Shown here piece by piece: positions 9,554-32,738 of a DNA stretch of 37,135 nt. Below the pieces are notes generated by a model. The model saw only the letters and a list, made by a program, of their open reading frames with translations, had not been told where the DNA came from and made no database searches. A program made the translations under genes and the position numbers. Source of the stretch: a virus; the IMG/VR virus record IMGVR_UViG_3300044951_001904, positions 1-37,135 of that record, one strand, 5' to 3'. Numbering within the stretch: the first letter of the stretch is position 1; each line of letters begins with the position of its first letter.

Positions 9554-9835
9554 TCAGTTAGGGAGCCGGAGGAGATCCACGGAGAGGCTGGTGCCAAGGC
9601 CCGTGCCGGTGAGAACGACACGGGCCTTGGAGCTGACGGCAATAATCCGATCTTCGCTCTTATCAGTTTCGGAATACGTTCCGCCATCAACGTCCACATA
9701 AGCGGCCAATTCGTCATCCCAGATCGTGAGGGTTGCGCTGGCCCCGTCCCATGTGCCCTTGAGGGTTAAGAGGTATTCTTGGCCGGCGTTGAGTTCGGAA
9801 AAACTGGCGGTTTGGGTGGCGTCTGTAAGAATCAT
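9554..9835 (-). CDS. Small beta-rich virion protein with repeated leader, 93 aa
   Basis: The ATG at 9835 is chosen because the 60 bases in front of it are an 88% match to the leader of the 64-aa gene at 30466, and the shared sequence ends with that ATG. The protein reads as one compact beta-domain (LLTLKGTWDGASATLTIWDD, then acidic loops and VVLTGTGLGTSL), of the size of a jelly-roll or carbohydrate-binding insertion. It likely belongs to the fibre or baseplate set. An alternative upstream TTG start would translate the hairpin region and add 20 residues, and would need the repeat to be conserved as protein. Confidence 0.6.
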   Translation of the reverse strand: MILTDATQTASFSELNAGQEYLLTLKGTWDGASATLTIWDDELAAYVDVDGGTYSETDKSEDRIIAVSSKARVVLTGTGLGTSLSVDLLRLPN

Positions 9836-9898
9836 GCCCGCGTATAAACTGCGCGCGCCGGTGCGAGCAAGCGAGCGGGCGCTTGCCAAGATCAATCA
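9833..9898 (-). repeat. Hairpin leader repeat, copy A
   Basis: On the minus strand this 66-base block begins at the TGA of the upstream fibre gene and ends with the ATG of the 93-aa gene. It matches 30658-30723 at 58 of 66 positions without gaps. It contains GATTGATCTTG followed by a 20-base hairpin, GCAAGCG-CCCGCT-CGCTTGC, and ends TTATACGCGGGCATG. A third, partial copy of the hairpin and its upstream word lies at 27238-27258. Confidence 0.8.
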
Positions 9899-10699
9899 GC
9901 CTTTGAGGTTGGTGATTGCTATTCGGGCGAATTGTTTCGGGAGGGCTGTGCGGACGTCGGAAAGATTGGTGTAGGCCCCCGAGAAATAATAGCCATCCAC
10001 CCAGATAGAGAGCTGGCCGTATAGATCCGGGACGTAATACCCCGGCCAATACAGGTAATTTTTGGAGGAGAAATCCGTTTGTTCGGTGTTGGGGATGTCG
10101 ATGCGCCAAACGCCTGGCCCCGACGCCGCCACCGTGGATCCACTCCACCCGGCCGCGCGGAGGTCTGTCTGTAACTGCGCGGCGTCGGCGGGCATGTGAT
10201 ACGGGAAATTTGGCAGGGCGATGACAGTAGAATTGATCGTGAGTGCCGTGAACGGTTGGCGGCGGTCGTCCATACAACTCTCGATAAACATCACTCCTGT
10301 TTTGATCTGCGAGTCGATGGGGTAGCAGGACCGCGCCCAGAGGTCATAGGTGCCATCCTCCATGGAGAGGGGAGAATCCGCGCAGTCGGAAAATTTCCCG
10401 TAGCTCCAGTTTTCCAGATCCTCGCTCCACATAAGGTCCAGGCGATAGAGGCCCGCGCGGTCATTGAAGCCCGCAGCGGCGTTGCCGGTCCAGATATCAG
10501 CCTCGACGTTGAAGCCGACCTCGAACCATTTCTCGATACCGTTTTCCCCGTCCTCTTCGGCGATTCTAACCTCTAACAAATCCTGACGGGTGGGGAGTTC
10601 GGGATCGACGAATACGACGCGGCCGTTGCGGATGAGGCATTGCACTTTTGCGCCGGCATGGCGCAGCTCCGTCACTTGTCTGCCTCCGTGCTGGATCAT
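9896..10699 (-). CDS. Putative tail fibre/baseplate protein, 267 aa
   Basis: It starts with an ATG overlapping the stop of the 311-aa fibre gene (ATGA). The first 40 residues are a small beta-domain with Arg/Val (HGGRQVTELRHAGAKVQCLI); the rest is beta-rich with Trp, Tyr and Asp in an adhesin-like composition. No catalytic motif or named family is seen. Its stop codon is the first base triplet of leader repeat copy A. A role as receptor-binding or fibre-linking subunit is inferred from location. Confidence 0.55.
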   Translation of the reverse strand: MIQHGGRQVTELRHAGAKVQCLIRNGRVVFVDPELPTRQDLLEVRIAEEDGENGIEKWFEVGFNVEADIWTGNAAAGFNDRAGLYRLDLMWSEDLENWSYGKFSDCADSPLSMEDGTYDLWARSCYPIDSQIKTGVMFIESCMDDRRQPFTALTINSTVIALPNFPYHMPADAAQLQTDLRAAGWSGSTVAASGPGVWRIDIPNTEQTDFSSKNYLYWPGYYVPDLYGQLSIWVDGYYFSGAYTNLSDVRTALPKQFARIAITNLKG

Positions 10700-11631
10700 G
10701 CCTCGGGGATGATGTTATAGACGGTTCCGGCATCCTCTTGCTCGGCGGTGCTCAGGGCCTCGAAAGCGGAGAAGGTGATATCCACCCATTCCAACCCGGT
10801 TCCATTGGTGCCGTTCGTTCCGTTCGTTCCATTGGTGCCAGGGGTTCCGTTCGTTCCATTGGTGCCAGGGGTTCCGGTGGGCGGGTCAATGGCTTGGATC
10901 CAGATGGACGAGCCGTAATCAATGCCATCCGCGAGCGTCCAGAATCGGAAATCGAATAGATCGGCAGCGTCGGCGAGCAATAGGGTTTCGCTGTTCCAAA
11001 CGACGGCGGTTTGTTCGCCGTCTGTCCATATCTGTATTTGGTGGGCTACTTGGGTTTGGATGATGGTGGTCGGGGTGGCGTCCTCGAAGGCGTAGCCGGG
11101 CACCTCCACCGTGGCTTGGGTGCGCACTATCTTGATCCATTCGCCCGAGGCCGGGGCCGTGTCCGTGCCGTCCGAGCTCCAATGGCCGGCGGGGGTTTTC
11201 CCCAACAGGACGCCGCCGCCGGGTTCGTCGGGCAGGGGCACGTCGGGCTGGGCACTGTAAGTGGCCTGGATGACAAATCCTACTCCCGCGTTGTAAGTCT
11301 CCATCCCGTAGGTGGTAGCGACGTAATACGACACTTCTTGCGGAACCTGCAGGGCGACCGCATCCACCCCGTCCCACAACACTCCCGGGTTTTGGTAATA
11401 CAAAACAAAGTCGTCCTTGACCCAGTAATCTTCAACGGGCGCATAAGTCCCGAGCATTGCGACCCCGCCGAACGATTCCGGCAGGTGGAATCCATCGGGC
11501 AAATAATCCACCGTCATGACCGGAGCGGGGGATTCCAGACCCAAGCCATAGAGACAGGCGCTGACGACCTCTCCTTTGGCGGGCACGCGCAGAGCTTGGC
11601 GTTCGAGAATGCGGCGGCGGGAGGAGTTCAT
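10696..11631 (-). CDS. Tail fibre protein with collagen-like segment, 311 aa
   Basis: Residues 1-240 are a mixed beta-region with many Tyr, Val and Gly, beginning with a short basic helix (SSRRRILERQALRVP) that could attach to the virion. Residues about 252-276 are a collagen-like run of GTP/GTN triplets, a trimerising rod typical of phage fibres. A 35-residue tip follows. The gene overlaps the giant core gene upstream by ATGA. The host receptor cannot be told from sequence. Confidence 0.65.
   Translation of the reverse strand: MNSSRRRILERQALRVPAKGEVVSACLYGLGLESPAPVMTVDYLPDGFHLPESFGGVAMLGTYAPVEDYWVKDDFVLYYQNPGVLWDGVDAVALQVPQEVSYYVATTYGMETYNAGVGFVIQATYSAQPDVPLPDEPGGGVLLGKTPAGHWSSDGTDTAPASGEWIKIVRTQATVEVPGYAFEDATPTTIIQTQVAHQIQIWTDGEQTAVVWNSETLLLADAADLFDFRFWTLADGIDYGSSIWIQAIDPPTGTPGTNGTNGTPGTNGTNGTNGTNGTGLEWVDITFSAFEALSTAEQEDAGTVYNIIPEA
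10804..10878 (-). repeat. Collagen-like tandem repeat
   Basis: Nine-base GGN-ACN-AAY type units and a 27-base imperfect tandem duplication encode Gly-Thr-Asn/Pro triplets of the fibre rod. Such runs change length readily by slippage without breaking frame. Confidence 0.75.
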
Positions 11632-14600
11632 GGATCGGTCACTTGTTTGCTGAGGCCAAACAAGTCCTTGGCCAGGTGCATGAGCGAGGAATATTCTGCC
11701 GCACGGCCATTGAGCACGGCCAGCCCTGAAAGGATCTTATCCACGTCCGAAATGATTTCCCCGGCGTCCTTGGTCCCATCAAACCATTCTGGAGTGTGCA
11801 TAAGAGCTTGCGTTCCCTTGCCGAAGTTGCTGACGATATTTCCCTCGGGATAATACTCCCCGGCCATTGTATAAACGCCGGATTGTACCATGTCCCCGAT
11901 GATTGGCAGCCCCCCCAAAGGCCCGCAAAGCGTGGAGAGAGCCAGGTTTTTCAGACTCCAGTTCTTTTCATCAAACCACTCATCATCCCCACCATCAAGC
12001 AAATCGCGTTTGGCGGCGCGCAGGACGGCCGCCATCATTCCCATGACCAGCCACCCGACAAAGAGAACCCGAGTCTTGCGCGACAGAGACGCGTCTGGAT
12101 TGGCTAACTCAAACATCATTTTAGCTGTCTTCTGCCGCTGTTCCGAGGCAAATGCCCAGGAAAACTTCAGCGTTACCGCCGCGCGGTTTTCCAACATGGA
12201 GCGCGTGCCGGGCCGGGTTGGCTGGCCCACGCGGTCACAGCCGCGTTCCGCCTCGTTATGGGCGAACGCCTCTGCCTCTGCATCCGCCATGTCGGATTCC
12301 TTGGCCAACATGAGCTGGTAATCGTAAATCATGGCGTAAGTGCCCGCCGTGCAGAGTGCGTCCATTCCGCCGATCAGGCCGCCAAGTTGTTGCACTCGCA
12401 TATTCACATAGGTGGGTTCCGCCGCCGCCAGACTGTCAACCGCCATCCTCACCATGACCGGAAGTTCCTTGAAACGCCGCTGGATGTAAGGCGTGTTCAA
12501 TGCCACACGGTAATGCAATTGCCCGGTCGAGAGCTTAGCCAGCCGTTTGACGTAAGAGGGTATAGGCATTTCCAGTGCCGCAGCGCTAAGCTGGGTGGTT
12601 TGGATGAGAATCACGCCGGCCTTGCCAATGAGAATGGATGAAGCGGCGTTTCTCCCCATGGCGCGGAAAACATCGCTCGCCCAATTTTGCTGCCCGGCCT
12701 CCCGGTGGCCGCCCTGTGCGAAGTAATCCACAAAATCCGTGAGGGCATCGCGCGCTGCCTTCCCTCCCTTTTCCTCAACACTATTGAGCACGCCCCGGTC
12801 CAAGAACATGGCCATCATGTCGGCATTGAATTTCCCGTAGGCGATGAAGTGTTCCATCTGCTTGATGTGGCCGAGGAAGAGTTGCGCCGCATCCTGAAAC
12901 CAAGGCTCGGCAACCGCCGTTTGTGAGCGGTTGCGAAGGCTGCCGGGCGTCATGGTCATGCCATTCATCATGAAGCCGGTCGTTGGGTCCACCACTTGCC
13001 CCACTCCCTCTTTCGAGGGCTTGACGGACAAGGGCGAATAGAACGCATGGCGCGGCAGGTTCACCCCATAGAGATCACGGAACACCGCATTGATGCGGTC
13101 ATATTCGGCGGCGTATTGATCGATGAGGAAGAGCCGAACAGCCCGCGCGTTGTCATCCAGCTTGCTTTCCGCCTCGTCAACCCATGCCTGATCGTAATTC
13201 CACTCACCCACGGGCTTGCCAGCGTCATCCAGATGCCCCTGCATGTGCCGTTGGCCGTCTTCCTGCCGCCACATGAGCGAGGCCGTGATGATTTCCATCT
13301 GGCTCATGGGTCGGCGGCGGACCTTGACGGTCGGCTGGTGCATTGCCCATTGCAATTTGCGCCCATCTAACACAGACCCACCTGCCAATCGGGCAAACAG
13401 GGATTCCAGGGCCTCCGTCTTGGCAATGATCGCGTCTGTCTTGGCATTCGAGCACCAGCGTTCCCGATCCACTAGGTGATTGGTGAAAAAATCTTTTTCA
13501 CCGAAATTTTCAACCATCACCTGCTCGAATGAGCCAAAGGCAAGCCGGGCTGCATGAAGATTGGCTTTGGCCCTGTTCACGGCATTTCGGACTGCTCCCA
13601 GATCCGTGTCCTTGCCGGCGTCTTTGTACCGTTTGATTTGCCGCTCGTCGCCATCGCTGCCTACCTTTCCGGTGGCCTTCTTGAGCGCATCGCGCCCTTT
13701 GGCGCGTTCCTCACGGCGCTTTGACACCTCGATCAATCGGCCCATGTATCCGCCGTCTAACAGTCGCAGGGCTTCGGTATAAGCCTTTTCCCGGCGCGCC
13801 GCATCCGCCTGATGCCAGTTGCCCGCCAGAGTGATCATGCCGATTTCCAGATTCAGGTGCGCTTCCTGTTCGGGCGTAAGATCCTCACGCAGCAAGCAGC
13901 TTTCCAATTCTGCCACTCGCGCTTCCACGCCGGCGGCGTCCAGACCCATGGCGTGTTCGATAGCGCGGAAGAGATCGTGCATGTCCGCGCCAATCTTTCC
14001 AGACGGGCGTTTTCCTTCCTCATCCTTCTCGGGACGGGAACGCTTGAGGAGTTTTTCAAACTCGTGGCCGTATTGTTCTTTGAGGAAGCCTTTAAGCCCT
14101 TTGTCGGCCAATGCCAGCTTTTCCTTGAGGTAGCGTAGCTTGGCTTCGTCGCTCTCGATGCGCGCCATCTGGGTATGGCCCCCCAGGCGGCCCCGCAGCT
14201 CGTAGGGCAGTGCCGCGAGAATGGCATCCAGCATCGCTAACGAGCGCTGGATTTCCTCTTTCTGGGAAAAGTTCGCCGCTTGATCGCCCGTGCGTTCTGC
14301 AAGCCATGCGTTGGCTTCCTCCTTGGCGCGCAGTTTGGCGGCGCGCGCATCCTCCTGTGCTGCCTTAACGGCCTCCTTCATCTTGCCTACCGTGGCTTGC
14401 TCCTGGTGCAGAAGCGCCCACATGGCATCCGGCGTGGGTTCCTTGATGAGGTACGCTTCGAAGAGCTCTTGGGCAGCCTGATCGGGCATGAGCGTGCCAC
14501 CAAACACCGCGCGAGAAATCCCGTCCGCTCCATCGTAATCACCGGGCCGGTTCACTTGGAACATGTCTGGGTGTTTATCGATGGCCTGGCGCTTGCTCAT

Positions 14601-17600
14601 CACCCGTCCGCGCAAGGGCGTATCCGGGTTGGCCAGCAGGGCGTGCCCCGGTTGACTCTTGATCTTGGTCAAGTCCGCGTCATCCATCACACCTTGGCGC
14701 CGTGCGTAGGCAGCGCCCACGTATTCATCGCGCAGACGTTCTTCTTCCAGATTGGCCGCCCGCTTGAGTTCCCCCTTTCCCTGCTTGTGGGTGGAAAGCA
14801 GTAATTGCCGCTCATTGCGCACGCGCAGTTCATCGAAATCCCGCGCGATCCGGCTCATCACCTGGGCCAGCCGCCGAGGGTCCTTGATCCTCGACAACGC
14901 ATCACCCGCCATGATCGATGCCATGTTGGCAGGACCGAGGGAATAACTCACCCCAGTGAGCGAACCCGGCAATTCGGATTTTGCCGATTCCAAAGTATTC
15001 GCAACTGCGCCTCGCTGAAATTCTTGTATCGCGGATGCCGTGACGATTCCTCTTTGTAAAGTTGAAACGCCGATTCCGCTTGTGCCTGGACTTGCGGCGA
15101 CACTCGCTTCATTGGCGTCATCGTCTGTAAGTTCGTTCCCATCGGCTTTGCGAAAGATGCCTCTGGAAAAGTCAAATGTCCAGCTTTTTGCTTCAGGAAT
15201 TGCCTTGAAAACATTCTCCATCTCCTTCGTCAGCAACAACGATGTGTTAAGAATATCGTTATTGGTCCACTTCCCGACCTTCTGTTCCGCGTGCGGCTTC
15301 AAGTGCCGCGTGGTTCCCCACCGGATCGCGGATGCTGCCATATTGGAGGTGCGACGGATGCAGTTGATCGCGGTGATTCCGCTGGTGTCATCCTTGATCC
15401 GCTTGCCGTTGTTGCGAATCCAATCCAGAGCAGCTTGATAGAGTTGCGATCCGCCGCCGGAGAGCTTGCCTTGAGATCCCGCAGCCGAGCTGCGGATGTC
15501 CGGGCGAGCAGTGTCAATATCACGAACGTCCAGATGCCCTTCCTGGCCCATGAAACGCAGCGTCGATCCCGACTCTCTCACCGTCACCATTTTTCCGGGC
15601 AGAGATACCGCCTTGGCAATTTCCTCCGCGTCCTTGCTGGTGGTTTTGCCATACTGGAAAATCTCGTCATGCGCCCCATACGTATTCCAAACATGCGCCA
15701 CAAACGACTTGGCCGCGTTCTTCGCTTCTTCGTCACGTGCATCCAGCAACGCTGCGAAAGCGGCTTGGTGGGGGTTGAGCGTGCGGGCGGCGGCGGTTGT
15801 TGCGGCCTGCGGTGGCGGATCAGCGCTGGTGTCATTCGGATCAGGAGCGTTGACCGGATCAAATTCCTCGGATGCCAGATACAGAGCGGCCTCGGCATCG
15901 GCCAGGGATTCGCGTGCGGCCTGCAATTCCTTGTTTTCTAAAAACGGAGCGTGATCAAAACCGGTGGATTCCGCGATAATCGCGCCGTCCCGAATAATTC
16001 GGGTGGCCTTTCCGGTGCCTCGAATGGTCCCGAAATCATGCGTCACAAAATGTGTGAACCCATTTTTCAGCGAATTTTCAACAAAATCTGGCTCGGTTGC
16101 TATCCATCGGCTGTAAGATTCCCGAGAATCGCTTTCCCATTCTCCCGCAGCGTTTTTTTTGTAGGCCGTGGTGATAAAGCCCGTTGTTTGAATTTCCCGG
16201 CCGTGCTGATTCTCCCAGTGTGCGCGGTCGGCTTCGTTGGCGTGTTGCGCCTCAGCCAAAGCGGTTCTTGCCTCCGAAACCTTATTTTCCGCCTTTTCGT
16301 AATTTTCTCTTGCCCTCCCCAAAGAAAACGATACTTTCCCGCTGTCGCCGCGAGGTGACAAGTCGCCGGGTTCGCCCGGCGCGGATTGAAACGCTAACGC
16401 TAACGCTTTCGCACTGGAAACCGGGCTTGTCCCTGAATCCGCTGTAAAGTCAGCACCAATCAGAGCCGGGTCAGCAATGCCCCGGCTCTCTTGCGTAGTA
16501 GATGGAAGTTCTACCGGCCCCAGCGAAAACATCGGCCCCGCATTCTCCAGCAGCTTGGCCAACTCAGCTTTCACGCGGGCCTCATGCGCCTTTTGCCGAT
16601 CCAAGCCCATCAGCTTATCCAGATACGCTTGATAGGTGCTTGAATCGAAATGGCCGGCCTTCTCTGCTTTCTTCATCAGATAGGCTCGACTCTGCGCCAG
16701 CCCCCACCGCGCCTTGGCCGCCGCACAGAACGCTTTGAAATTCCGCGCCGCTCCCGGCTCCAGGCGTGCCACCGCGCCGATATGGCGGGAAATCACAGAT
16801 CGCGGCACATTGAATCGACTCGGCCCGCGCTTCGCTGTCTTGAAAATCTCCATTTCCCCAATTTCTCCGATCGCCTCGGAAAGCAGCTTGTCGGGAATTT
16901 GCTCGTCAGTCATCCCCTCTGGAATGAATCGCGCTTGAGTGCCGGCGCCATCGCCTCGGCGCATGTTCGTGGTGCGACCGGCAAAGATCGTGTCCAGGTC
17001 CCGCAGCAGGTCAATGTCATCCGCCCGGGTGATTGTGCCCGCCGCCCGTGCCCGCTCGCGCAATACATGGAAATCCTCATGGAAGACCGTTGGCAGCGTG
17101 CCGCCTTGGAAAATCTTGGTCACCAGGGTTGCCACGCCTCCCCGCTGTTCGGAAATTGTCAGGCCGATCACGTTGCGCGTGATCGCTCCCGTGCCGCCGG
17201 CCGCTTGTTCCTGAAGCGCCATTTCTTGCGCGTAGGTCTCGACAAACTCAGGCCCCATGGTTTCAACCGTCTCCCGATTGAACAGCTTGCCTAAATCCAC
17301 TTCCGTTTCCACGCCCATCAGCTTGGATGCCGTCTGCGTGCCGGATAACAACGTGGCAAGCGCCATCATTTGATCCGAGCTTGCATCATCCAGGGCGGCC
17401 GTGTGCGCCCGGATCAACCGGCGCGCGCCGCTGAGGTCCGCCGCCGTGCCCACTTCCTCACCCGTGCGGCTGTCATGCACAGCAAAGGTGCCGTCCGCGC
17501 GGCTGACAATCCGCGGGCTCTCGTAGCCCAGCGCCGCCAGATCGTGGCTCGCGGCTTGTTGCGCCGCCGCCTGGCGCTGCAATTCCGCCACCGCCGCCGC

Positions 17601-19478: not shown

Positions 19479-19482
19479 GGGA

Positions 19483-21507: not shown

Positions 21508-21511
21508 AAAA

Positions 21512-21979
21512 TTAGGGCTCTTTTTTGGCGTAATCCTTCGCGAGAGATGCACCACTCGTCAGCAAGGATCCATAAGAAGAAATCCGCGTGGAAGCAGCCT
21601 GCATGCGGCCCTCCCAAAGTGCCATGGAGCCCTTGCTGCGCAAATTCTGGGCTTCCATCGCCCCCGCCCGCGCCGCGTCTTGGATTTTAAGTTCCATCCC
21701 CCCTGAGGTTTCGCCGAAAACATCCATGTTGGATCCGTCCATGACCATGCCCGAGGTGCCCGCCATCTCCGCATGGAGCCGGGCGAGCCGTCGCCGATTG
21801 TTGATGCGTTCACGGGCGATTGCCTCTGCGTTTTGCTGTTCCTCGTTTCGGGCCTGGGCATAGGCGGCTTCTTGTTCGGCTTTCGCCGCCGCCTCCGCGT
21901 TGGAGGCAGCCCGTTGCGCGGCGACAAACGTGACGCCGGTGCCGATCGCGGAGAGAATGAGGCCGATAATAGCGAACAT
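21512..21979 (-). CDS. Internal virion protein (gp14-like), 155 aa
   Basis: It begins with a hydrophobic segment (AIIGLILSAIGTGVTFVA), followed by an Ala/Glu/Gln-rich helix (ASNAEAAAKAEQEAAYAQAR) and an amphipathic Arg-rich region (RERINNRRRLARLHAEM). A small N-terminal hydrophobic helix with a long Ala-rich coiled coil is the hallmark of gp14-type core proteins, which insert in the host outer membrane during ejection. Position directly before the gp15-like gene supports this. It starts with ATG and no Shine-Dalgarno. Confidence 0.75.
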   Translation of the reverse strand: MFAIIGLILSAIGTGVTFVAAQRAASNAEAAAKAEQEAAYAQARNEEQQNAEAIARERINNRRRLARLHAEMAGTSGMVMDGSNMDVFGETSGGMELKIQDAARAGAMEAQNLRSKGSMALWEGRMQAASTRISSYGSLLTSGASLAKDYAKKEP

Positions 21980-21983
21980 GATT

Positions 21984-22382
21984 TCAGAGGGGTTTGATGA
22001 GGTGGTAACAATCCGACGCCACCCGCTCGAAGCCGCAACGAACCGCCTCGTCCAACATGACGGGATGGGTGACAGAGGCGAAAAGCCGAGTGCATCCTTG
22101 TTCTTTCGCCACAGCCGCCAGCGATGCCAAAACGGCCTGAAGCGCGGGACGGGCGACCGCTGGCCGAAGACCCGGACGCGAAATCATCCAGTCCATGAAG
22201 GCCAGAGGCACCCCGACTGGTTGATAGAGCCATGCCGCCGCCAACGGCAACCCGGCCGCGTCCACCGTGCACACTCCGAAGGGAGGCAGCACGCCCGCAG
22301 GCATCGAGCCGAGGCCGCGCTCCTCGAACCAGCCGAGAATGACAGCCAACACATCCGGCGTAATGGGTTCAACCGTCTCCAT
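21984..22382 (-). CDS. GNAT-like acetyltransferase fold protein in virion module, 132 aa
   Basis: The C-terminal half (PALQAVLASLAAVAKEQGCTRLFASVTHPVMLDEAVRCGFERV) follows the last part of the GNAT fold: an alpha helix, a strand, and the helix-turn before the final GF-x-x-V strand that closes the acetyl-CoA site. The pyrophosphate-binding Q/RxxGxG/A loop is not clear. It lies between the tail tubular B and gp14-like genes and overlaps the former by 14 bases. Similar small GNAT-like genes occur at this spot in other podoviruses. The target, if enzymatic, is unknown; a degenerate structural role is possible. Confidence 0.6.
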   Translation of the reverse strand: METVEPITPDVLAVILGWFEERGLGSMPAGVLPPFGVCTVDAAGLPLAAAWLYQPVGVPLAFMDWMISRPGLRPAVARPALQAVLASLAAVAKEQGCTRLFASVTHPVMLDEAVRCGFERVASDCYHLIKPL

Positions 22383-24864
22383 AAAAATTCATTTTCAAGG
22401 TGATGCTTCGAATGGAAAACGGGAACGGCTCGTCTGACAGAATGCAGAAATCCCCCGTCTTCCCGTAACCGCCTTCAAAAAGTTTTTCCACTTCTCCAGT
22501 GAACAAGGCACTAACACTTCCCGCGTTCAACGCATCGAACACCGCCCCGTCCGGATCCTGGCCGATTTTGCCGCCCCTACACGCATACAACGATGGAACC
22601 ACCGTGTGGATCCGACTTTCGCGCGTCCGCGAAGAGCCGTTCGGCATCGGCACCTCGGGCGTCATCGGCTCGACGGTTGCCGTGTAGGGCCTGCCAATGA
22701 CCACGCTCCCGGAAGCAATACCCGTGAAAAAAGCGCTGTTGAGTGTGGCGGCGGGCATTGCCTCCCCGTTGTGCCAACCCACCACGGAAAGCCCCGCCAG
22801 CGGGTTGCCCGTCAACGAAAAGGGGTAGGCCAAACTCTGCCAACAATCTGACCAATGGCCAGAGTCCGCCGGCGTGGTGATCGCGTGGGGCGTCAACCGC
22901 TCCACCGTTCGCGTGCTGCCGTGCTGCATGATAAACCACACCTCGTCGTCCGGCACGTTTTTGATGCACGCCACACTGACCACCGTTCCGGCGGTCGGGT
23001 GGCGCTGCCAGGCGGCAATGTTCTGGGTGCGCTCGTAGGTGAGCGAATAGAGCACTCCACCCGAGACGATCCACAAAATTTGAAACGGTCGGCGTTGAAT
23101 CGCCCAACCGGTGATGGCCGACGTGAAAAGGTGATCGGAAAGCAAGGTGAGGTTTTGGGCCTCATAGCGGTCCGAATCCATCCGATACAGCATTTCCCGA
23201 ATGATCCGCCCACCATTCTGAACGAACAAAACCGCAGAGTCTAACAGGATACACCCAATCCCGGTCGGTTGAGTCCCGAACGAACTTTGCCGGGTTGCTA
23301 ACCCGAATTCAGGAGTGATCGCTGAATCCTCGCGCTCGCCCCGCATCGCGAATTCGCCGATGCCCGAACCAATGACCAATTGCCGGTCACTGGCCATCCA
23401 GACGATGGGTTCCCGCTGCCCGATCATCACCGTGTGGCGGAACGGTTCGTCCGCATCCGTCGAGGGATAAAAATTGTTATAGTCATCGACCGCGCTGCCC
23501 CAGATCGTATGACAGCTACGGGCTGTCGCGGCCAACAACAGGCGGTTTTGATGCAGTTCCAAACAGCCCGGATACCCCTGATACCCCCCCCAGGCCCCCT
23601 CACTCCACTGGTCAGTTGTGGCCACCACAACGGGTGTCACCGTCTCAGCCTGCACACTCGTAGCGGACACGCGCGCCGTGATTTTCACGATCCCCTTGAG
23701 ACGCGTATCTGTGACTTTGACATTCCCGTAAGGGAGGTCAGAGGCCCCCGGGGCGATGGCTACATACCCCGTGTACGAAATCCGCACGTAAGACCGCGTG
23801 GAAACCTGGCCGGTGGCGGAAACGTTTTTCATCTTCGCCTCCGAACTCTGCCAACTGCGGATCGTCTTCCATGTCGCACCTCGATCCGTGCTCGTCTGGA
23901 TAGAGAAGATCCCTTGCCACCTGCCGAATGTCGTGAAATTCCACCCCTCATTGGTGATCAAAATCTTGGAATAAATCAACACCGGGCTGGTCCCCGTAGC
24001 CGAAACCGGCAGGTCCGCTTCGTAATCCCACAGGTTGCGCTCAAAACTCAGTTCCAACAAACTGCCTACATGCGCCAGCTCCCAAGTGTCCTTGCTCGCA
24101 GTGAGCGTCACACTTTGCCCTAGCACCGTCGCCTGGTCCACCCAGCATTCTTCCCAGGTGCGTGTGCCGCCGGGGAACGGGACATATCCACTCCTGTACG
24201 CTGGCGCACCCGGCTGACCGAGAGTGCCGTACGTGTTTGTATTGTGTGCGAGAATGCACCGGTAATAAATCCCATTATTTATGACAATATCGCCCACTGA
24301 ATAGGCCTCATGCGTGACGGACCAGGCCGCCGTTGTCCCACTATACGCCACACTGATTTGCCACGTCTCGTCTAAATTTTCCGCGAGAAACGCCGCCTGC
24401 TCCAGCGGGATGAATGGCGCAACCGCCCATGTGGTTGCGTCGGTGCGGGTGAGCTTTTGAGGCGCATACAACGGATGCACGAAAAACATCACGTCATTCA
24501 ATTGCTTCCAGCGCAGCGCCGGGAGATCAGCATCCGCCCACGGAATGGTAACCAATAAATCACTTCCACCGCTTTGCACGGCGGTGCCTGCCGCAAAAAC
24601 TTTCATCTTGCGCCCGCCCAACGCCAGCATCACCGAATCCGCGCCCTTGATTTCAAATTCCACCAAGCGGCCGGTCGTGGCCGCACTTTCCAGCTTTCCC
24701 CGGTATTCCATGCCGGGCCGTTTGGAAATGCCTCCCTGGGGCCGGACAATGAAATTCTCTAAGGTGCGGCATCCTGTGGTGTATTTCGCCAGATCCGTGC
24801 GGCCATCAAGCCACGGCGAGAGTTCGCCGGCGTCGAAGGAAAGTACAGTTTTGAGAATGGCCAT
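22369..24864 (-). CDS. Tail tubular protein B-like / tail hub stabilisation protein, 831 aa
   Basis: The N-terminus (LSFDAGELSPWLDGRTDLAKY, CRTLENFIVRPQGGISKRPG) is the conserved start of podovirus tail nozzle/stabilisation proteins. In these proteins a FAGGELSP-type motif is followed by a CxxxxN and a Gly-Gly-Arg-Pro-Gly loop. The rest is beta-rich with many Trp and Tyr (beta-propeller-like). This subunit forms the distal tail tube below gp11-like subunits. Length (about 800) and gene order both match. It starts with ATG, nine bases after the stop of tail tubular A. Confidence 0.88.
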   Translation of the reverse strand: MAILKTVLSFDAGELSPWLDGRTDLAKYTTGCRTLENFIVRPQGGISKRPGMEYRGKLESAATTGRLVEFEIKGADSVMLALGGRKMKVFAAGTAVQSGGSDLLVTIPWADADLPALRWKQLNDVMFFVHPLYAPQKLTRTDATTWAVAPFIPLEQAAFLAENLDETWQISVAYSGTTAAWSVTHEAYSVGDIVINNGIYYRCILAHNTNTYGTLGQPGAPAYRSGYVPFPGGTRTWEECWVDQATVLGQSVTLTASKDTWELAHVGSLLELSFERNLWDYEADLPVSATGTSPVLIYSKILITNEGWNFTTFGRWQGIFSIQTSTDRGATWKTIRSWQSSEAKMKNVSATGQVSTRSYVRISYTGYVAIAPGASDLPYGNVKVTDTRLKGIVKITARVSATSVQAETVTPVVVATTDQWSEGAWGGYQGYPGCLELHQNRLLLAATARSCHTIWGSAVDDYNNFYPSTDADEPFRHTVMIGQREPIVWMASDRQLVIGSGIGEFAMRGEREDSAITPEFGLATRQSSFGTQPTGIGCILLDSAVLFVQNGGRIIREMLYRMDSDRYEAQNLTLLSDHLFTSAITGWAIQRRPFQILWIVSGGVLYSLTYERTQNIAAWQRHPTAGTVVSVACIKNVPDDEVWFIMQHGSTRTVERLTPHAITTPADSGHWSDCWQSLAYPFSLTGNPLAGLSVVGWHNGEAMPAATLNSAFFTGIASGSVVIGRPYTATVEPMTPEVPMPNGSSRTRESRIHTVVPSLYACRGGKIGQDPDGAVFDALNAGSVSALFTGEVEKLFEGGYGKTGDFCILSDEPFPFSIRSITLKMNFYGDG

Positions 24865-24873
24865 GAGGGGGAA

Positions 24874-25506
24874 TCAATCATCGAGTTCCGGGAAAAAATC
24901 GGCGCGGGTATGAGTCAACGCTCCGCCCAGCAGCGCCCTCAATGGATGGTTCTCGCCGCTCTGCGTGTCGTGGCCGTCCGCGCAGCGGGCGGCGGGAAGA
25001 TCCACCGTCTCGTAAATCTGCCGAAGGGACGCCTCCATGTTGTCCGCCCCGGTGATCGCCCGAGCCATCCGACTGGCCAACAAAGTAACTAAAGCCGCTG
25101 AAAATAGAGGATCGAAATCAGACGGCTCATCCACGAACTGAACGTAATCCAATTGCAAGGAATCGTAATCTCCTGCCACCAGACAGCGCGTGCCCGAAAC
25201 CCGCCGGATGTCGAACTTGTCTATCTGCACGCCAGACGCATCATACACCGCCCGCAGTTTAACGAAATCACTTGGCAGCTCGAAGGCAGCCGACCAGCCC
25301 AGCGTGCCGGTAACATCAGGGATGCGGGTGAGACTCGCCGCACCCATCGCGAATCCCCAAAAATGGGCGCGGAGCGCTTCCGATAGGCACGGCTGATAAT
25401 GCAGCTTGGCCAGCCGTGCGCCCTTGTCCGTCGCCGAATCAATGTCAGTGATGGGAAGATCCCCCAACTTGGTTAGGGCGAGGTTGGCAATGTCAGTCTG
25501 GGTCAT
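24874..25506 (-). CDS. Tail tubular protein A-like (gp11-like), 210 aa
   Basis: The start TQTDIANLALTKLGDLPITD and the later ARLAKLHYQPCLSEALRAHFWGFA are diagnostic for this family, which forms the ring between the portal and the nozzle and commonly has NLAL-KLG...I and LR-HPW-FA motifs. At 210 residues it is near the usual size (about 200). The C-terminal 20 residues are acidic. It is the first gene after the capsid-module terminator. Confidence 0.88.
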   Translation of the reverse strand: MTQTDIANLALTKLGDLPITDIDSATDKGARLAKLHYQPCLSEALRAHFWGFAMGAASLTRIPDVTGTLGWSAAFELPSDFVKLRAVYDASGVQIDKFDIRRVSGTRCLVAGDYDSLQLDYVQFVDEPSDFDPLFSAALVTLLASRMARAITGADNMEASLRQIYETVDLPAARCADGHDTQSGENHPLRALLGGALTHTRADFFPELDD

Positions 25507-25512
25507 GGGCGC

Positions 25513-25555
25513 TTAAAAGAAAACCCGGCGGAACGTGTGGAAACGCGCCGCCGGG
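25513..25555 (-). terminator. Rho-independent terminator after head genes
   Basis: On the minus strand CCCGGCGG and CCGCCGGG (8 bp, GC only) enclose a 16-base loop, followed by TTTTCTTTT. It lies between the head protein (25590) and tail tubular A (25506). Some transcripts would stop here after the abundant capsid genes; others must read through to express the tail and lysis genes. Confidence 0.8.
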
Positions 25556-25589
25556 CCTGTTATGATTTCGAATCCCGGAGCGGGGAGGC

Positions 25590-26105
25590 TCAATAGGTCA
25601 TGGCATACACGATGCGCGCCCAGAATGTCTTGATGGACGAGGCACACACCAGGTTAGAGGCCGGCAGGAAGCAGACCCACGAATCCGCAGTGGCAACCCC
25701 GCAAGCGGCATTGTCCAGGAACGAATCAGGAACTACGCTCAGCGTGGTGGCGTCATGCGCCACGGCGAGGGCTTCTAGCTGGATCGTCACACTGGCGATT
25801 TCCACGGCGGCAGTCACGCCGTCGAGGGCCACCAGAACGATTTTCCCGGCAACCGCCGCCGTGTGATTCGTCGTCAGACGACTCAGGAACGGCACGATTT
25901 TAGCCCCTTTCGGGATCTTGCCGAACTTAAGGTATTCGGGGGTGGCAGTGGTGATGGTTTGATCGACCGCCATCGTCGCCACGTCGTCAAGCAAGTAGAG
26001 CTTGGCGGAGGCGGCGGGGGCGTGTGAGCCCGAATTCGGGCCTTTGGTGAGCGCCAGCGTTTGAGCGGTGGCGAGAGTAGAAACAGAGGTGCCGTTGGTT
26101 GCCAT
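25590..26105 (-). CDS. Head decoration or minor capsid protein, 171 aa
   Basis: The protein is low in charged residues and rich in Ala, Thr and Val, with a beta-prone centre (KIVPFLSRLTTNHTAAVAGKIVLVALDG). It sits 40 bases after the major capsid gene and before the terminator, the place of head decoration, fibre or head-completion subunits. It lacks any enzyme motif. The composition suits a virion surface protein. The assignment is by position and composition. Confidence 0.6.
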   Translation of the reverse strand: MATNGTSVSTLATAQTLALTKGPNSGSHAPAASAKLYLLDDVATMAVDQTITTATPEYLKFGKIPKGAKIVPFLSRLTTNHTAAVAGKIVLVALDGVTAAVEIASVTIQLEALAVAHDATTLSVVPDSFLDNAACGVATADSWVCFLPASNLVCASSIKTFWARIVYAMTY

Positions 26106-26145
26106 GATGTTGGTTCAGGTAGAAATTAAGGTGCGATGGATCGGA

Positions 26146-27087
26146 TCAACCGGCTTGCTCGCAATACACAAGGACCACATGATCCTCACTCTTGCGGCAG
26201 GCTCCGGCCTTGATGCGGGAATAGACTTGGACTGCTTGGGATTGCGTCGGTAGCACGTCGATGCTGGTCTTGACGTCATACCAGAAATCCAGATGTACGC
26301 CGTTCGAAACCCACATCGGGCAAGTCCGGGTGAACAGGCTGTTGGCCACCGCCGTGCAGGGAAGGCGCTCGCTGCGCAGGAATTGTATCCCCATGAAATA
26401 ATCGACCTCACCTTGCACCAACGCTTTAACGTCGTTGTATTGGTTCGAACCGGTCTTCTCCACATCGAACAAGAGGTTGTTGAGTTCGTCCTGGCTGACC
26501 GCCATGATGAGTTTTGCCCCTTGATCGCGCTGGTCTTGCCCGTAAACTTCGAGTTTCCCGAAACGACCCTTCGCCTGGACCAACTTGGCGAGCGACAGCC
26601 CGCAGTTTGCCGGCGATGATGTCCGGTTATAGTTCACAGCGATGATTTGAGTAGCAGGAACCGCGACGGTGCTCATCGAATCCTCAATACCCTCGTAGTT
26701 GGTCCCGCAGATCCCGGCGATGAAAATATCATCCAACTTGCGGTTCGCCGCACCTTGGTGCTGGGTCACCACTTCCCCGGTGGGAGCGACGGCCAAATCC
26801 AACTCGGCGGCATCATCTTCGTCCAAGATCGTCGCAAGGCTCGCCTTGCGGGGGAAAAGATACCGATGCTCAAGCGCGAGTTCCTGCCCAACGGTGGGTT
26901 GTAACCTTCCGGTTACATCACTCATCTCGGCCTTTTGAATTTTGCGGTGCGCCTGACTCTTGCCGGTGCAGCCGGTCTTGACGGTGGCATACGCCTTGAA
27001 GCGCGCCTGAAGTTGTTGTGCGACATGTTCCATGCCCGCTTGGAACATGTTACGTGCCGATTGAGGAACGGTGAGTGCAACTGACAT
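26146..27087 (-). CDS. Major capsid protein, 313 aa
   Basis: It lies directly after the scaffold gene and has the size and look of HK97-fold capsid proteins of podoviruses: a helical N-arm (FQAGMEHVAQQLQARFKAY), a long E-loop-like region, then a helical spine (AELDLAVAPTGEVVTQHQGAANRKLDDIFIAG) and a C-terminal beta-domain (GACRKSEDHVVLVYCEQAG). No protease cleavage domain is present. The start is an ATG after a 261-base gap with no Shine-Dalgarno. The hairpin leader copy C lies about 150 bases upstream. Confidence 0.85.
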   Translation of the reverse strand: MSVALTVPQSARNMFQAGMEHVAQQLQARFKAYATVKTGCTGKSQAHRKIQKAEMSDVTGRLQPTVGQELALEHRYLFPRKASLATILDEDDAAELDLAVAPTGEVVTQHQGAANRKLDDIFIAGICGTNYEGIEDSMSTVAVPATQIIAVNYNRTSSPANCGLSLAKLVQAKGRFGKLEVYGQDQRDQGAKLIMAVSQDELNNLLFDVEKTGSNQYNDVKALVQGEVDYFMGIQFLRSERLPCTAVANSLFTRTCPMWVSNGVHLDFWYDVKTSIDVLPTQSQAVQVYSRIKAGACRKSEDHVVLVYCEQAG

Positions 27088-27348
27088 AATGATAGGTGGT
27101 TGTTAGATAAGGAATGCAGTGGGGTGCCTTCCCGATTGTCCACCTCTGCTACGGGCCTTTGCAGGTTGTCCGCCGCCTTGCGGGTCGGTTCGTCGATCGC
27201 GCTTTTACTTCCTAGCAGATGCGCCGAGCAAGAAGTCCTTTCCTTGCCAAGATCAATCGTGGCGGCGACGCGGACCATGCAAAACCCGCGCCGCCGCCAA
27301 CCTTCGCGCCCGACAAAGCCAGCAAAGGCGGGCGGAAAATAGCGGACC
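27088..27348 (-). promoter_or_regulatory. Long leader of the major capsid gene, with hairpin copy C
   Basis: No convincing gene fills this 261-base gap, one of the longest in the genome. At 27238-27258 on the minus strand lies GATTGATCTTG followed by GCAAGGA-AAGGAC-TTCTTGC, a 7-bp stem (one G-T wobble) and 6-base loop. It has the same size as the stems of copies A and B but with different bases in the outer part of the loop-proximal stem. The rest of the gap shows no terminator or clear promoter. A frame that begins at 27278 overlaps the capsid gene for 165 bases and looks like a shadow. Confidence 0.55.
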
Positions 27349-28077
27349 CTAACCGTCTATCAGTCGTTTGACCTTCGCAATAGCGACTCGGTCCCCGGCG
27401 TGATACTTCTCAAAGTCCGGGTGCTTGCTGTCCGTCATGATCGCGTGTGCCTCTTCCGCCCCGTTGACGAAAGTATGGCCGGGCGCCACCGCGCCGCGCA
27501 TGCTCGCAACGCTGTCTTCACTGAGCATTCCAACCACTTTCCCGAGGAATGAAACCACCTTGGGATTGGAAAACAACGAGGCGTCCGCCGGGTCATAACC
27601 CAACGTTGCCACCACACTTTTCACGCGGCCCATCTTCGTGTCGAACGCCTGCCCCCACTCCTTCTTGAGCGCCGCCGTCCCGTCTTGAATCGATTTTTCA
27701 TACGCCTCCGAAATAGCGGCGTGATTGGCCTTCTCGACCTCTAAAAACGTTTGAGTGATCGCCATCGCCGCTTCAGCCGGCACACCCTTGGCATGGAAGA
27801 CCCCGGCAAACTGCTTCGCCATCTCTTCATTCCAGGAAATCCCCTCTGGGATCTTTTCAGGTTTCAATTGATATCCCTCTGGGGTTTCCGGAACCTCCAG
27901 CGCCGGCGGTCTCGCCGCATGAAATTTGGTCTCCAGCGCGCTGTATGACTTTGCCAAATTCTCGGCGTCCACCGCGCCTTCCCGCCAGAACTTCTCAGGA
28001 ACCCATTCCGGACGGACAAGGGGATCGGGAGTGACAGGATCGGGAGTGACGGGAGTGACAGGATCGGGAGTGCTCAT
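27349..28077 (-). CDS. Capsid assembly scaffold protein, 242 aa
   Basis: The N-terminus has a short repeat of DPVTP units. The conserved PEWVPEKFWREG...DAENLAKSYSALE motif then marks scaffold proteins of T7-like and related phages. The rest is helical and charged, with a C-terminal basic stretch (VAIAKVKRLIDG) that typically binds the capsid protein. The start overlaps the stop of the 142-aa gene (ATGA). It would guide procapsid assembly and leave before DNA packaging ends. Confidence 0.85.
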   Translation of the reverse strand: MSTPDPVTPVTPDPVTPDPLVRPEWVPEKFWREGAVDAENLAKSYSALETKFHAARPPALEVPETPEGYQLKPEKIPEGISWNEEMAKQFAGVFHAKGVPAEAAMAITQTFLEVEKANHAAISEAYEKSIQDGTAALKKEWGQAFDTKMGRVKSVVATLGYDPADASLFSNPKVVSFLGKVVGMLSEDSVASMRGAVAPGHTFVNGAEEAHAIMTDSKHPDFEKYHAGDRVAIAKVKRLIDG

Positions 28078-28502
28078 GGCTTTTTGATTTCTGGGGATTT
28101 TTTAACGGCTTTCGGCTTTTCAGGATCAGGCGTAGCCACTAAATCAGTGACCTCATCCGCCCAATCCGGGTAACGCCTGACGAGATCCGCCGGGGAGAGG
28201 TGCGCGTGCGCCCACTCCATCACCGCAGGCGTGCGGTCGCCCAAAACAGGACTCATCAAGGCCAAAATATCCGCCGGGAAAGCCACCAGGGGCTCCGGGG
28301 CAGGAAGCGCCCGCTTCCCCGCACTCACGCCCGCCAAGGCAATGCCTTCGCGGCTCATGAAAAACGCCCGGCACTCCTCTTTCAACCCTTCGAACTCGGG
28401 CCGGAGATAGGCCGTCAGAGTCGGGTGGTCGTATTTCCCAACGTGCTCGTCGCCTTTGAACAAGTGACGGCGTTGATACAGGTTCCATTCATGCAGATTC
28501 AT
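28074..28502 (-). CDS. Head-module protein, 142 aa
   Basis: The ATG at 28502 (MNLHEWNLYQRR) is preferred because it lies just inside the end of the Bbp19-like gene; an upstream frame extension would run back through that gene. The protein is rich in Pro and Ala with a basic tail (KPKAVKKSPEIKKP). Its N-terminal helix is followed by LTAYLRPEFEGLKEECRAFFMSREG. Position between portal/Bbp19 and scaffold suggests a minor head or assembly protein. No known family is recognised. Confidence 0.6.
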   Translation of the reverse strand: MNLHEWNLYQRRHLFKGDEHVGKYDHPTLTAYLRPEFEGLKEECRAFFMSREGIALAGVSAGKRALPAPEPLVAFPADILALMSPVLGDRTPAVMEWAHAHLSPADLVRRYPDWADEVTDLVATPDPEKPKAVKKSPEIKKP

Positions 28503-28797
28503 CGTGGGTCGGGTGGGTGGGTGGGGCCGCTGTGGCGGCACAATTGAGAATGTCTGAAAAAACCGAGCGGATGCCGTCACGGTAAGCCGCCATATGGGGA
28601 CTCATCCCGTCCTCGGCGCTGAAAACGCTACCCATGAAATTGCTTCTGGCCAGAGCGAGCCTTAACCAGTCCCGGCCGTTAGAGGTCGTGAAAAGTTTTC
28701 GCGTCAACCGCGCGAATCCCTCTTCCACCGCCACGGAATCCTTTTGCAGACGCTCCGCCTGCTCAAACAACCTCAGAGGATCTTCCATATCAATCAT
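28489..28797 (-). CDS. Bbp19-like small virion protein, 102 aa
   Basis: The protein is helical. It has a conserved middle (VFSAEDGMSPHMAAYRDGIRSVFSDIL) where a segment ending in the DGxR-x-V-F motif matches the Bbp19 family, first named in a Bordetella podovirus. Those genes follow the portal, as here, and the product is found in virions. The start ATG overlaps the portal stop (ATGA). The role inside the head is not established. Its last residues overlap the next gene by 14 bases. Confidence 0.65.
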   Translation of the reverse strand: MIDMEDPLRLFEQAERLQKDSVAVEEGFARLTRKLFTTSNGRDWLRLALARSNFMGSVFSAEDGMSPHMAAYRDGIRSVFSDILNCAATAAPPTHPTHDESA

Positions 28798-30461
28798 TGG
28801 CTTAGCTGACTCGGTAAATCTCCAGGCTGAACCTTCATGCCCACCTTTCCGGCGGCATCTGCCGCTTGCTGTGCCATTGCCAGTTGCGCTTGCTGCGCTT
28901 GGGCCTGCGCCTTTGCCTGCCTGCCCGCCTCTATGTCTTCTTGACTGCGCAATATATGGTCACTCACCCCGTCATTGCGAGCACTTTGCCGCAAATAAAC
29001 ATCCACATCGATATTGTCCAACGCCCCGGCGTCGAGTACGGCCAACTGCATCGCGCGCTCGACCAGTCGATCACTCGCCGCAGTTTCCGCCTGCCGGATC
29101 GCCAACGCCACCCTGCTTTGATAAACCACCTTTGGAGGAGGGACCTCCGCGCCCTCCCTGCCCCGCACAATCACCGCCTGTGGAATGTCCTCCACGGCAC
29201 CGAACACCCCGGCCCGGAATAAAATCGCAAAAATGCGCTCCATCATGATTTGAAAGTCCGCCGTGAAGCGCGTGAACGAGGGGGAAAACGGCATGAGTTT
29301 CTCTGCAGACAACTCGGAAACCTCCCGTGCCGTCATTTGCTTTTGCCGATCCGCAAACATGCGGAAAAGATCCGTGTGGAACGCCTGGCGGATACATTTG
29401 CGCGCGTCCTCTAACTGATCCTGCATTCCTCGCGGATCCCCGCCAGACAACCATTCTTTTGGCATCACCCCACTCGTGCTTTTGAACACGGTCTTGCCGC
29501 CGGGCCGGGTGTCCACGTTGCCGACCAGGTTATCCGGTATCAGCACTGGCGGAACCGCCAGCTTTTGCCCCACCACCTGGAGAATCTGCTTCGTCTTGTT
29601 CGCGTCGATGATCGCCGCTTCGCATTGCTCGAACGGCGCATAGCCGTATTGCTGGCGGCTGCCGGTTCGCTTCAGGTAGCGGCTCACGCAAAAGGGTAAC
29701 TCCTCGAAACCGCTTTCCTTTAACATCGTCTTCCCTTCCTCCGCCACCCAGCAGGAAGCAAACCGCATGTTGAAAACATCGCGTGAACCCTCTGCCCTCG
29801 ATAACCGTGGAAACACCGCATGAATCAAAAAATGATCCGCGTTCGTCCCTTTATCTTTGAACTTTGCCCAACTCGCCGCCAACACCGCATTCGCCCCGAT
29901 CGTCTCTTCCCCAAACTCCTGCACCAACTGCCGAATCGAATAGGAACGCCGTAAAAAAATCGTGTCCACATTGCCCTCGTTGTCCTCCTCAATGCAGAAA
30001 CTGCCAACCGGGTGGGCCTGAAACGAAATTTTGCGCTCGTCATGCGGCATCGCCGCCAAACAACAAAGTCCAAAGCCGGATCGATCCTCGAACGCCTCAT
30101 TGAGCATCGTGTGAAAATTTCCGGCGGCCAGTAAATTGCGCGCTTTTTCCGAGCACGAGTTATACCATTTGTCCGCCTCGTCGCTCTTGATCGCGTCCGG
30201 TGCCTCCCACGCAAACCATTGAGTGCCCGCCGGCGTGATGGCGCTCGAGTGCCCGCTCGCCAAAATCGCCACACTCTCAATTGCCGTGGTGTCAAACAAC
30301 CGGTTCGCGCTGTTCGTGCCCGGCCCTGGAGTTTGCACCCGCGCATGATTCCCCTTCCGTGGCAATGCGTAATCGCTCACGCGCTGCCATTGCGCATCCC
30401 ATGGCGCTCGATCGGCCGTCATCTGCGACCAGCGCGCCAGAATGTTGTGGGGATCTTCCAT
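28794..30461 (-). CDS. Portal protein (podovirus head-to-tail connector), 555 aa
   Basis: Length and order fit portals of the bacteriophage head-tail connecting family. The N-terminal half contains ALPRKGNH and the conserved DTTAIESVAILASGHSSAIT-like wing helix. The core and stem follow with RQAFHTDLFRMF and a helix AREVSELSAEKLMPFSPSF. The C-terminus is a Gln/Ala-rich coiled coil (AQAQAQQAQLAMAQQAADA). It makes the 12-fold ring at one vertex through which DNA enters and leaves. The start is an ATG four bases after the stop of the 64-aa gene. Confidence 0.92.
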   Translation of the reverse strand: MEDPHNILARWSQMTADRAPWDAQWQRVSDYALPRKGNHARVQTPGPGTNSANRLFDTTAIESVAILASGHSSAITPAGTQWFAWEAPDAIKSDEADKWYNSCSEKARNLLAAGNFHTMLNEAFEDRSGFGLCCLAAMPHDERKISFQAHPVGSFCIEEDNEGNVDTIFLRRSYSIRQLVQEFGEETIGANAVLAASWAKFKDKGTNADHFLIHAVFPRLSRAEGSRDVFNMRFASCWVAEEGKTMLKESGFEELPFCVSRYLKRTGSRQQYGYAPFEQCEAAIIDANKTKQILQVVGQKLAVPPVLIPDNLVGNVDTRPGGKTVFKSTSGVMPKEWLSGGDPRGMQDQLEDARKCIRQAFHTDLFRMFADRQKQMTAREVSELSAEKLMPFSPSFTRFTADFQIMMERIFAILFRAGVFGAVEDIPQAVIVRGREGAEVPPPKVVYQSRVALAIRQAETAASDRLVERAMQLAVLDAGALDNIDVDVYLRQSARNDGVSDHILRSQEDIEAGRQAKAQAQAQQAQLAMAQQAADAAGKVGMKVQPGDLPSQLSQ

Positions 30462-30465
30462 GCCG

Positions 30466-30660
30466 TTAGGAACCGCCCAACAAGGTTTTCAACGGAACCA
30501 CTCCCGGAGCCGCAGCAGCTAACAGCGTGCTTTGATACCCAGTGGCCTTGCCCGAGCGGCGACGCTTCGCATCTTGCTGCGCCAACGCCACATCCTCATC
30601 AGATGTCGTTACAGGCGGGGGTGGGGGAACTGCCTTAGGTGGTTTCGAGGAAAAGCCCAT
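30466..30660 (-). CDS. Small Pro-rich head-module protein with repeated leader, 64 aa
   Basis: The protein starts MGFSSKPPKAV and goes on with a run of Pro residues and an acidic/Arg-rich patch (SDEDVALAQQDAKRRR). It lies between terminase and portal and is probably a minor head or packaging factor; similar short Pro-rich proteins precede portals in other podoviruses. The ATG at 30660 is chosen because the leader repeat shared with the 93-aa gene at 9554 ends there. A longer TTG-started version would translate the repeat. Confidence 0.6.
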   Translation of the reverse strand: MGFSSKPPKAVPPPPPVTTSDEDVALAQQDAKRRRSGKATGYQSTLLAAAAPGVVPLKTLLGGS

Positions 30661-30723
30661 GCCCGCGTATAAGCCACCCGCGCCGCCGCGATCAAGCAAG
30701 CGGGCGCTTGCCAAGATCAATCA
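30658..30723 (-). repeat. Hairpin leader repeat, copy B
   Basis: The 66-base block begins with the TGA of the terminase large subunit and ends with the ATG of the 64-aa gene. It shares 58 of 66 bases with copy A at 9833-9898. The hairpin here is best drawn as GCAAGC-GCCC-GCTTGC. A TTGATC, 18 bases, TATACG box ends five bases before the ATG and could be a near-leaderless promoter. Confidence 0.8.
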
Positions 30724-32259: not shown

Positions 32260-32738
32260 GACCGCGACCGGATTTTTTGCAGTAGCCCGGCGAGTTGCTC
32301 GCTGGCGTCCAGGGTTATTTTCTCAGGCGCGTTCCAGCTGAGTAGAGTGGCCAGTTGCTTGGCTGCGTCCAGCTTACCCACGATCTTAATACGCGTGCGC
32401 GCCACTTGCTCGCCTATCTCCTCTCGTGTCACCTCCTGCGCCAAATCGCTTTCTTCATCGATCTGACCCACTGGAGTGGTGATCGCCCGAGTGAGAAATT
32501 CGATCAGTTGCCATTTCTGATACTGGTCGGCCTCAGCCATGCGCCGGCGCGCCGCCCGCACATACGCCATGAGCTTGTCTTTTCTCAACATCTTGCACGC
32601 TAGGGAATCGGCCGACCCTCCCCGCGCCTTGTAGCCCGCACGCTCATACGCCCGCCCCGCAGGCAGGCCGCCGATGAACCCGTCAGCAAATGTCCGCTCG
32701 CGCGGACTCAATCCAAAATCATCTTTGGCTGCGCTCAT
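32256..32738 (-). CDS. terS: Terminase small subunit, 160 aa
   Basis: The start at 32738 (MSAAKDDFGLSPRERTFADGF) is set by an ATGA overlap with the previous gene. Residues 12-60 form the N-terminal HTH of the Terminase_2 family (LSPRERTFADGFIGGLPAGRAYERAGY), followed by KMLRKDKLMAYVRAARRRM. A helical oligomerisation region and a C-terminal segment (KQLATLLSWNAPEKI) typical of the family then follow. It recognises the packaging site and loads TerL. Confidence 0.9.
   Translation of the reverse strand: MSAAKDDFGLSPRERTFADGFIGGLPAGRAYERAGYKARGGSADSLACKMLRKDKLMAYVRAARRRMAEADQYQKWQLIEFLTRAITTPVGQIDEESDLAQEVTREEIGEQVARTRIKIVGKLDAAKQLATLLSWNAPEKITLDASEQLAGLLQKIRSRS

Follow-up and report, generated by a model that had tools for sequence, protein, structure and literature searches.

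Four late promoters of phage P2 have a common TGT-N12-ACA motif and respond to the zinc-finger activator Ogr (PMC3931495), and in phage Mu the late promoters (lys, I, P, and mom) carry the C site 5' of a −35 element that departs from consensus (PMC4461284). The window analyzed here is a 37,135-nt stretch of phage DNA that begins and ends with the same exact 122-nt repeat (positions 1 to 122 and 37014 to 37135), so that it probably represents a complete genome of about 37.0 kb, circular or circularly permuted. An exact search of the window confirmed that the 16-mer GATTGATCTTGGCAAG, described in an earlier note on this DNA, is present in three copies, all on the minus strand (Table 1). No fourth site was found in the window with up to three mismatches, a tolerance at which 0.38 sites are expected by chance. 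The same exact search of IMG/VR returned 48 matches, among which the near-identical L038 is the only related phage and the remainder look like chance. The three copies are best read as the promoters of a late regulon of three operons that share an upstream recognition box, and not as an RNA hairpin, with a probability of about 0.82.

The copies in front of gene A (copy A, 9833 to 9898) and of the small head gene B (copy B, 30658 to 30723) are 66 nt long and identical at 58 of these positions (88%). As had been claimed, both run from the upstream stop codon (TGA) to the ATG, thus filling the whole gap. Copy C stops about 155 nt short of the capsid ATG at 27087, so that the placement of the copies in front of virion genes holds for genes A and B, whereas the capsid copy does not lie directly 5' of its gene. 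Likewise, the separation of 17 to 21 kb reported for the copies applies to copy A versus copies B and C, while copies C (27.2 kb) and B (30.7 kb) lie only 3.5 kb apart.

A regularity absent from the earlier note is common to the three copies: downstream of the 16-mer come 11 nt (N11) that are unrelated or only loosely related, then TTG(C/A)TC, and, after a further 18 nt, TATACG or TAAAAG. Copies A and B end in TATACG-CGGGC-ATG, where the start codon stands at the normal distance between a −10 element and a transcription start. A box-bearing promoter is laid out in this way, a leader is not. The proposed unit would comprise a recognition box (16 nt in this phage) at about −63 to −48, centered near −55, an 11-nt free spacer, a TTG-type −35 element, a spacer of 17 to 18 nt, and a weak −10 element. 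The −35 and −10 elements are weak, and a standard σ70 scan, run on five regions upstream of capsid or head genes, called no site. As we infer it, host RNA polymerase would use these weak elements, and a box-binding protein, most likely phage encoded and made before late transcription, would occupy all three sites and presumably activate the portal/scaffold, capsid, and tail/lysis-side operons together. A σ54 promoter (GG-N10-GC) was considered and rejected, the GG of the box and the GC of TTGC being separated by N17 in the window copies. A dyad of the form TTG-N7-CAA fits the box of the window and of some relatives but not of others, so no dyad is claimed.

Table 1. Features of the 37,135-nt window discussed in the text
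Feature	Positions	Strand	Remarks
Winged-HTH-like protein	2131-2511		Candidate regulator
Small protein	3149-3433		Candidate regulator
HTH/YdaS-like protein	4139-4546		Candidate regulator
Integrase	5203-6474		Family match
Gene A, 93 aa	9554-9835	−	Heads tail/lysis-side late operon; G001 orthologue is 41% identical and lies behind the equivalent promoter
Putative −10 (TATACG), promoter A	9841-9846	−	ATG (9835-9833) starts 6 nt downstream
Putative −35 (TTGCTC), promoter A	9865-9870	−	11 nt downstream of box
Putative recognition box, copy A	9882-9897	−	GATTGATCTTGGCAAG; equivalents at G001 L086:19480 and G008 L090:2512(−)
Major capsid gene	26146-27087	−	Pfam PF19821; PHROG 3437 major head protein
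Capsid-leader RNA hairpin, 62 nt (candidate)	27129-27190	−	Between capsid promoter and ATG; covariation in relatives
Putative −10 (TAAAAG), capsid promoter	27202-27207	−	Predicted 5' leader of ~105-110 nt
Putative −35 (TTGCTC), capsid promoter	27226-27231	−	11 nt downstream of box
Putative recognition box, copy C (capsid promoter)	27243-27258	−	Equivalents 5' of the capsid gene in 9 relatives
Strong G+C hairpin	27261-27298	−	Immediately upstream of capsid promoter; from folding
Small head gene B, 64 aa	30466-30660	−	Heads portal/scaffold operon
Putative −10 (TATACG), promoter B	30666-30671	−	ATG (30660-30658) starts 6 nt downstream
Putative −35 (TTGATC), promoter B	30690-30695	−	11 nt downstream of box
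Putative recognition box, copy B	30707-30722	−	Equivalents in G001, G004, G008, L098, L118, L124, L157
DnaA-domain-IV-like protein, 118 aa	32735-33091	−	Bac_DnaA_C, E = 2e-6, below curated cut-off; candidate regulator

At the head-gene and gene A sites, transcription is predicted to start on the ATG itself, and promoters A and B would thus probably give leaderless mRNAs. The capsid site would instead give a leader of about 105 to 110 nt with an RNA structure of its own. The alternative offered in the earlier note, in which copies A and B would form part of a putatively leaderless promoter, is supported, and a promoter with a leader can be added to it for the capsid copy. A Shine-Dalgarno (SD)-like motif precedes 2 of the 38 window genes (three of the 38 coordinates are off start codons and should be disregarded), a scarcity that agrees with Verrucomicrobiota hosts poor in SD motifs. 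Published SD-scarce organisms include Akkermansia muciniphila and another Verrucomicrobia bacterium (PMC10783764). In a host of this type a missing SD motif is thus no proof of a leaderless mRNA, and leaderless starts in such a host are plausible.

Related phages were gathered from IMG/VR and GTDB genomes by capsid, portal, and large-terminase searches, with capsid identities from 80% downwards; a scaffold-based search yielded only distant or already known phages. One relative (L065, L118) comes from the assembly Akkermansiaceae bacterium RYN_631, and L157 lies in a genome that, like RYN_631, is grouped within the Akkermansiaceae. Relative G001, with a capsid identity of 80%, has three sites of like design (L086, positions 1943, 5583, and 19480) before the three equivalent genes. 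These are the three best sites of its first 20 kb, and they carry a box of their own, TTTC(C/T)GTATCGGCAAG. G008 has three sites with the box TGTCGGCAAG, the third of which precedes a 107-aa gene whose C terminus is gene A-like by eye, and G004 has two sites with the box TTTCGATATTGGAAAC. Additional sites are found in L098, L053, L054, L060, L118 (the Akkermansiaceae MAG), L124, and L157.

The conserved positions and spacings were compared over 19 sites from 11 phages. The distance from box to TTG is 11 nt, and TTG or a one-base variant occupies the −35 position, in 19 of 19 sites, a figure that is not an unbiased count because the sites of the relatives were partly picked by eye with this architecture in mind. 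The GG/A of the box and the TT of TTG reach 1.7 to 2.3 bits of information, against at most 0.53 bits in the N11 columns, and N11 is not shared between the sites inside most phages. A −10-like TA follows 17 to 18 nt after TTG, and wherever a gene A or gene B site was examined in these phages, the ATG lies 6 to 10 nt downstream of the −10 element. The same box thus stands at a fixed distance upstream of the −35 elements of several late operons. Within a phage, the boxes are identical at 11 to 16 of 16 positions (7 of the 10 pairs are at 16 or belong to the three-copy window set), whereas between phages the mean is 9.8.

Since the choice of sites was guided by layout, upstream regions were also compared independently of the box. 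In 11 phages, two upstream regions were set against each other, one of 450 nt for the portal gene (including the small gene) and one of 350 nt for the capsid gene. An exact same-strand word of at least 16 nt is shared in six of the 11, with a length of 16 nt in the window, G001, G004, and L132, 26 nt in L134, and 32 nt in L157. Among the controls, random pairs within genomes reach this length in 1 of 557 cases and pairs across phages in 0 of 110, the latter never reaching even 14 nt. No shared word was found between the capsid and head-gene upstream regions of L133 and L140, and only 11 nt are shared in G008, L098, and L135. In L132 and L134, whose capsids are 27 to 29% identical to that of the window, the shared word differs again from those of the other phages and is absent from the rest of the stretch examined. 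The late sites of these two phages have an entirely different sequence and possibly a different −35 geometry. The recognition word therefore turns over between phages and moves together within a phage, with little or no difference among the sites of most phages. Such concerted change is what one would expect if a single protein reads the DNA site at several promoters.

Turnover of the box is also compatible with a phage sigma factor or polymerase that would read the box (as −35) and TTG (as −10) directly, with no activator. This is the alternative that survives best, although it is improbable. The fixed 17 nt from the GG of the box to TTG and the weakness of the −10-like element speak for it. 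However, no sigma factor or RNA polymerase family matched among the window proteins scanned, and the TA-rich element 17 to 18 nt after TTG, with the ATG 6 to 10 nt further on, would be left unexplained. Concerted change would likewise be expected if the box were the shared operator of a repressor holding the late genes off in the prophage, and the window encodes both an integrase and an HTH/YdaS-like protein. This reading ranks next and is also unlikely, as the box lies outside the core site of the polymerase, at a position (about −63 to −48) that is usual for activators, and the promoters are weak without help.

For the activated late promoters favored here, the candidate box-binding proteins are given in Table 1. 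Co-occurrence points to the genes at 32735 and 3149, which are common to G004 and G008, but this is not decisive. The gene at 32735 to 33091 lies directly upstream of the small terminase gene and is conserved in both of these phages. Elsewhere in the window, a 2616-aa protein was considered as a possible phage RNA polymerase, and only an LPD37 polyvalent domain was found in it. The minus-strand gene at 10696 to 11631 contains a short tandem repeat of 9-nt units of the GGTTCCATT/GGTGCCGTT type (10798 to 10887) that encodes a collagen-like Gly-X-Y stretch.

The reading first proposed for the copies, an RNA element with a GCAAG...CTTGC hairpin under selection for its structure and acting in put-like antitermination, processing, or translational control, is very unlikely and already largely refuted. 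A 7-bp stem with differing inner pairs can be drawn in all three window copies, but these fold no better than dinucleotide shuffles (z of 0.83, −0.38, and −0.27, with the same outcome over 63 nt). Over the 19 sites in 11 phages the stem is not conserved: 64.7% of cells pair compared with 63.1% in shuffled columns, a value reached by 150 of 500 shuffles, and the covariation score of the gap-free alignment is matched by 136 of 500. At the four informative stem pairs in the 16 non-window sites, 25 of 64 cells are paired, against a shuffle mean of 25.8. Three of the seven stem pairs come free, since the stem is built in part from the −35 TTG and the box end (GGCAAG), and the CAA/TTG part of the stem is conserved because these two elements are each conserved for their own reason. 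The changes between the inner pairs of copies A and C, which the earlier note took to be compensatory, are thus attributed to chance, since the stem bases of relatives change without compensation, an outcome that the earlier note itself had named as refuting its proposal, and the folds are at shuffle level; a hairpin under covariation was accordingly rejected. Furthermore, the spacing from box to TTG is fixed, as for DNA. In three relatives (L059, L060, and L098) a strong hairpin or palindrome does span the capsid promoter from box to −10 (z of −3.1 to −4.2). This is possibly a terminator fused into the promoter, although an RNA role may also be read there. That the copies are recombination, packaging, or replication sites repeated by happenstance is the least credible reading, because this short motif, although repeated in intergenic DNA, is always oriented with the genes and placed beside −35/−10 elements where an operon begins, and relatives have it at the equivalent genes.

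If the copies are late promoters, G+C hairpins just upstream of the capsid box are as expected where one transcript ends and the next begins. A hairpin with a short T run is found at the equivalent place in G001, G004, L054, L132, and L134, and a hairpin in L053. A simple terminator scan, covering five regions upstream of capsid or head genes, called none, so we infer from folding that the hairpin at 27261 to 27298 probably ends the scaffold-side transcript.

The predicted capsid leader contains a second hairpin (27129 to 27190), distinct from the GCAAG...CTTGC hairpin, and covariation is seen in this leader hairpin only. Its structure has two inverted 1×4 internal loops, with C opposite AYAA, and is conserved in ten phages. 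In a structure-fitted alignment 98.6% of cells pair, five pairs are altered on both sides, and the covariation score is reached by none of 500 shuffles. A covariance model built from nine phages recovers the tenth (L157) at 33 bits and, in more distant phages, picks up weak hits a short way 5' of the capsid genes; versions with a single motif are present upstream of the distant capsid genes of L135 and L110. An Rfam covariance-model search of the window and capsid region gave no match at gathering score and one chance-level hit, and the leader hairpin itself has no Rfam match. As a candidate new family of structured RNA, the leader hairpin is thus well supported by comparative analysis, and it is judged the more interesting RNA of the region.

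Taken together, a testable map of late promoters replaces a doubtful RNA claim in a group of Verrucomicrobiota phages with relatives in the Akkermansiaceae. The phages of this phylum have little transcription data, and a literature search found no paper on their late promoters. With a box that changes in concert across operons, these phages offer a clean natural example of coevolution between a presumed regulator and its sites, and comparing the DNA upstream of capsid and head genes allows late promoters to be located from sequence alone. A tentative extension, itself rather doubtful, is that Verrucomicrobiota podoviruses possess a module in which the word of the regulator changes fast and in step at two to three late promoters. 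In such a module, head and tail mRNAs would be leaderless, and a structured leader with two inverted AYAA loops, found on the capsid mRNA only, would set its output, perhaps as a binding site for the capsid protein or for some other virion protein.

The portal and capsid of the Pelagibacter phage HTVC010P group are related to those of the window (identities of about 28% and about 31%, respectively), whereas no equivalent box was recognized by inspection upstream of the HTVC010P capsid gene. The put element of HK022 and the nut and qut elements of lambda are likewise short and repeated upstream of phage operons. However, put and nut act in nascent RNA and qut acts at one late promoter, while the window structure is not conserved and its box is predicted to be untranscribed. 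The activator sites of the P2 and Mu late promoters match the window box in position, near −55. In common with Mu, the window has a putative activator site upstream of the −35 element, and non-consensus −35 and −10 elements are common across its late operons; it differs in being an unrelated phage, in the sequence of the box, and in having no C/Mor-family match among the window proteins scanned. The three boxes and their flanks contain no TGT-N12-ACA, the Ogr family has no match among the proteins scanned, and no Ogr-type Cys4 zinc-finger gene was found in the window (a six-frame search gave one match, un-Ogr-like and in a plus-strand frame overlapping another gene). Without the P2 dyad and an Ogr gene, the window sites are therefore not members of the P2/Ogr family, from which they also differ in the leaderless starts predicted at two of the three sites and in a podovirus-like capsid (PF19821). 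What they have in common with P2/Ogr (and P4 delta) is the design, in which several late operons carry the same box upstream of a poor promoter and, as proposed here, would be served jointly by a phage activator.
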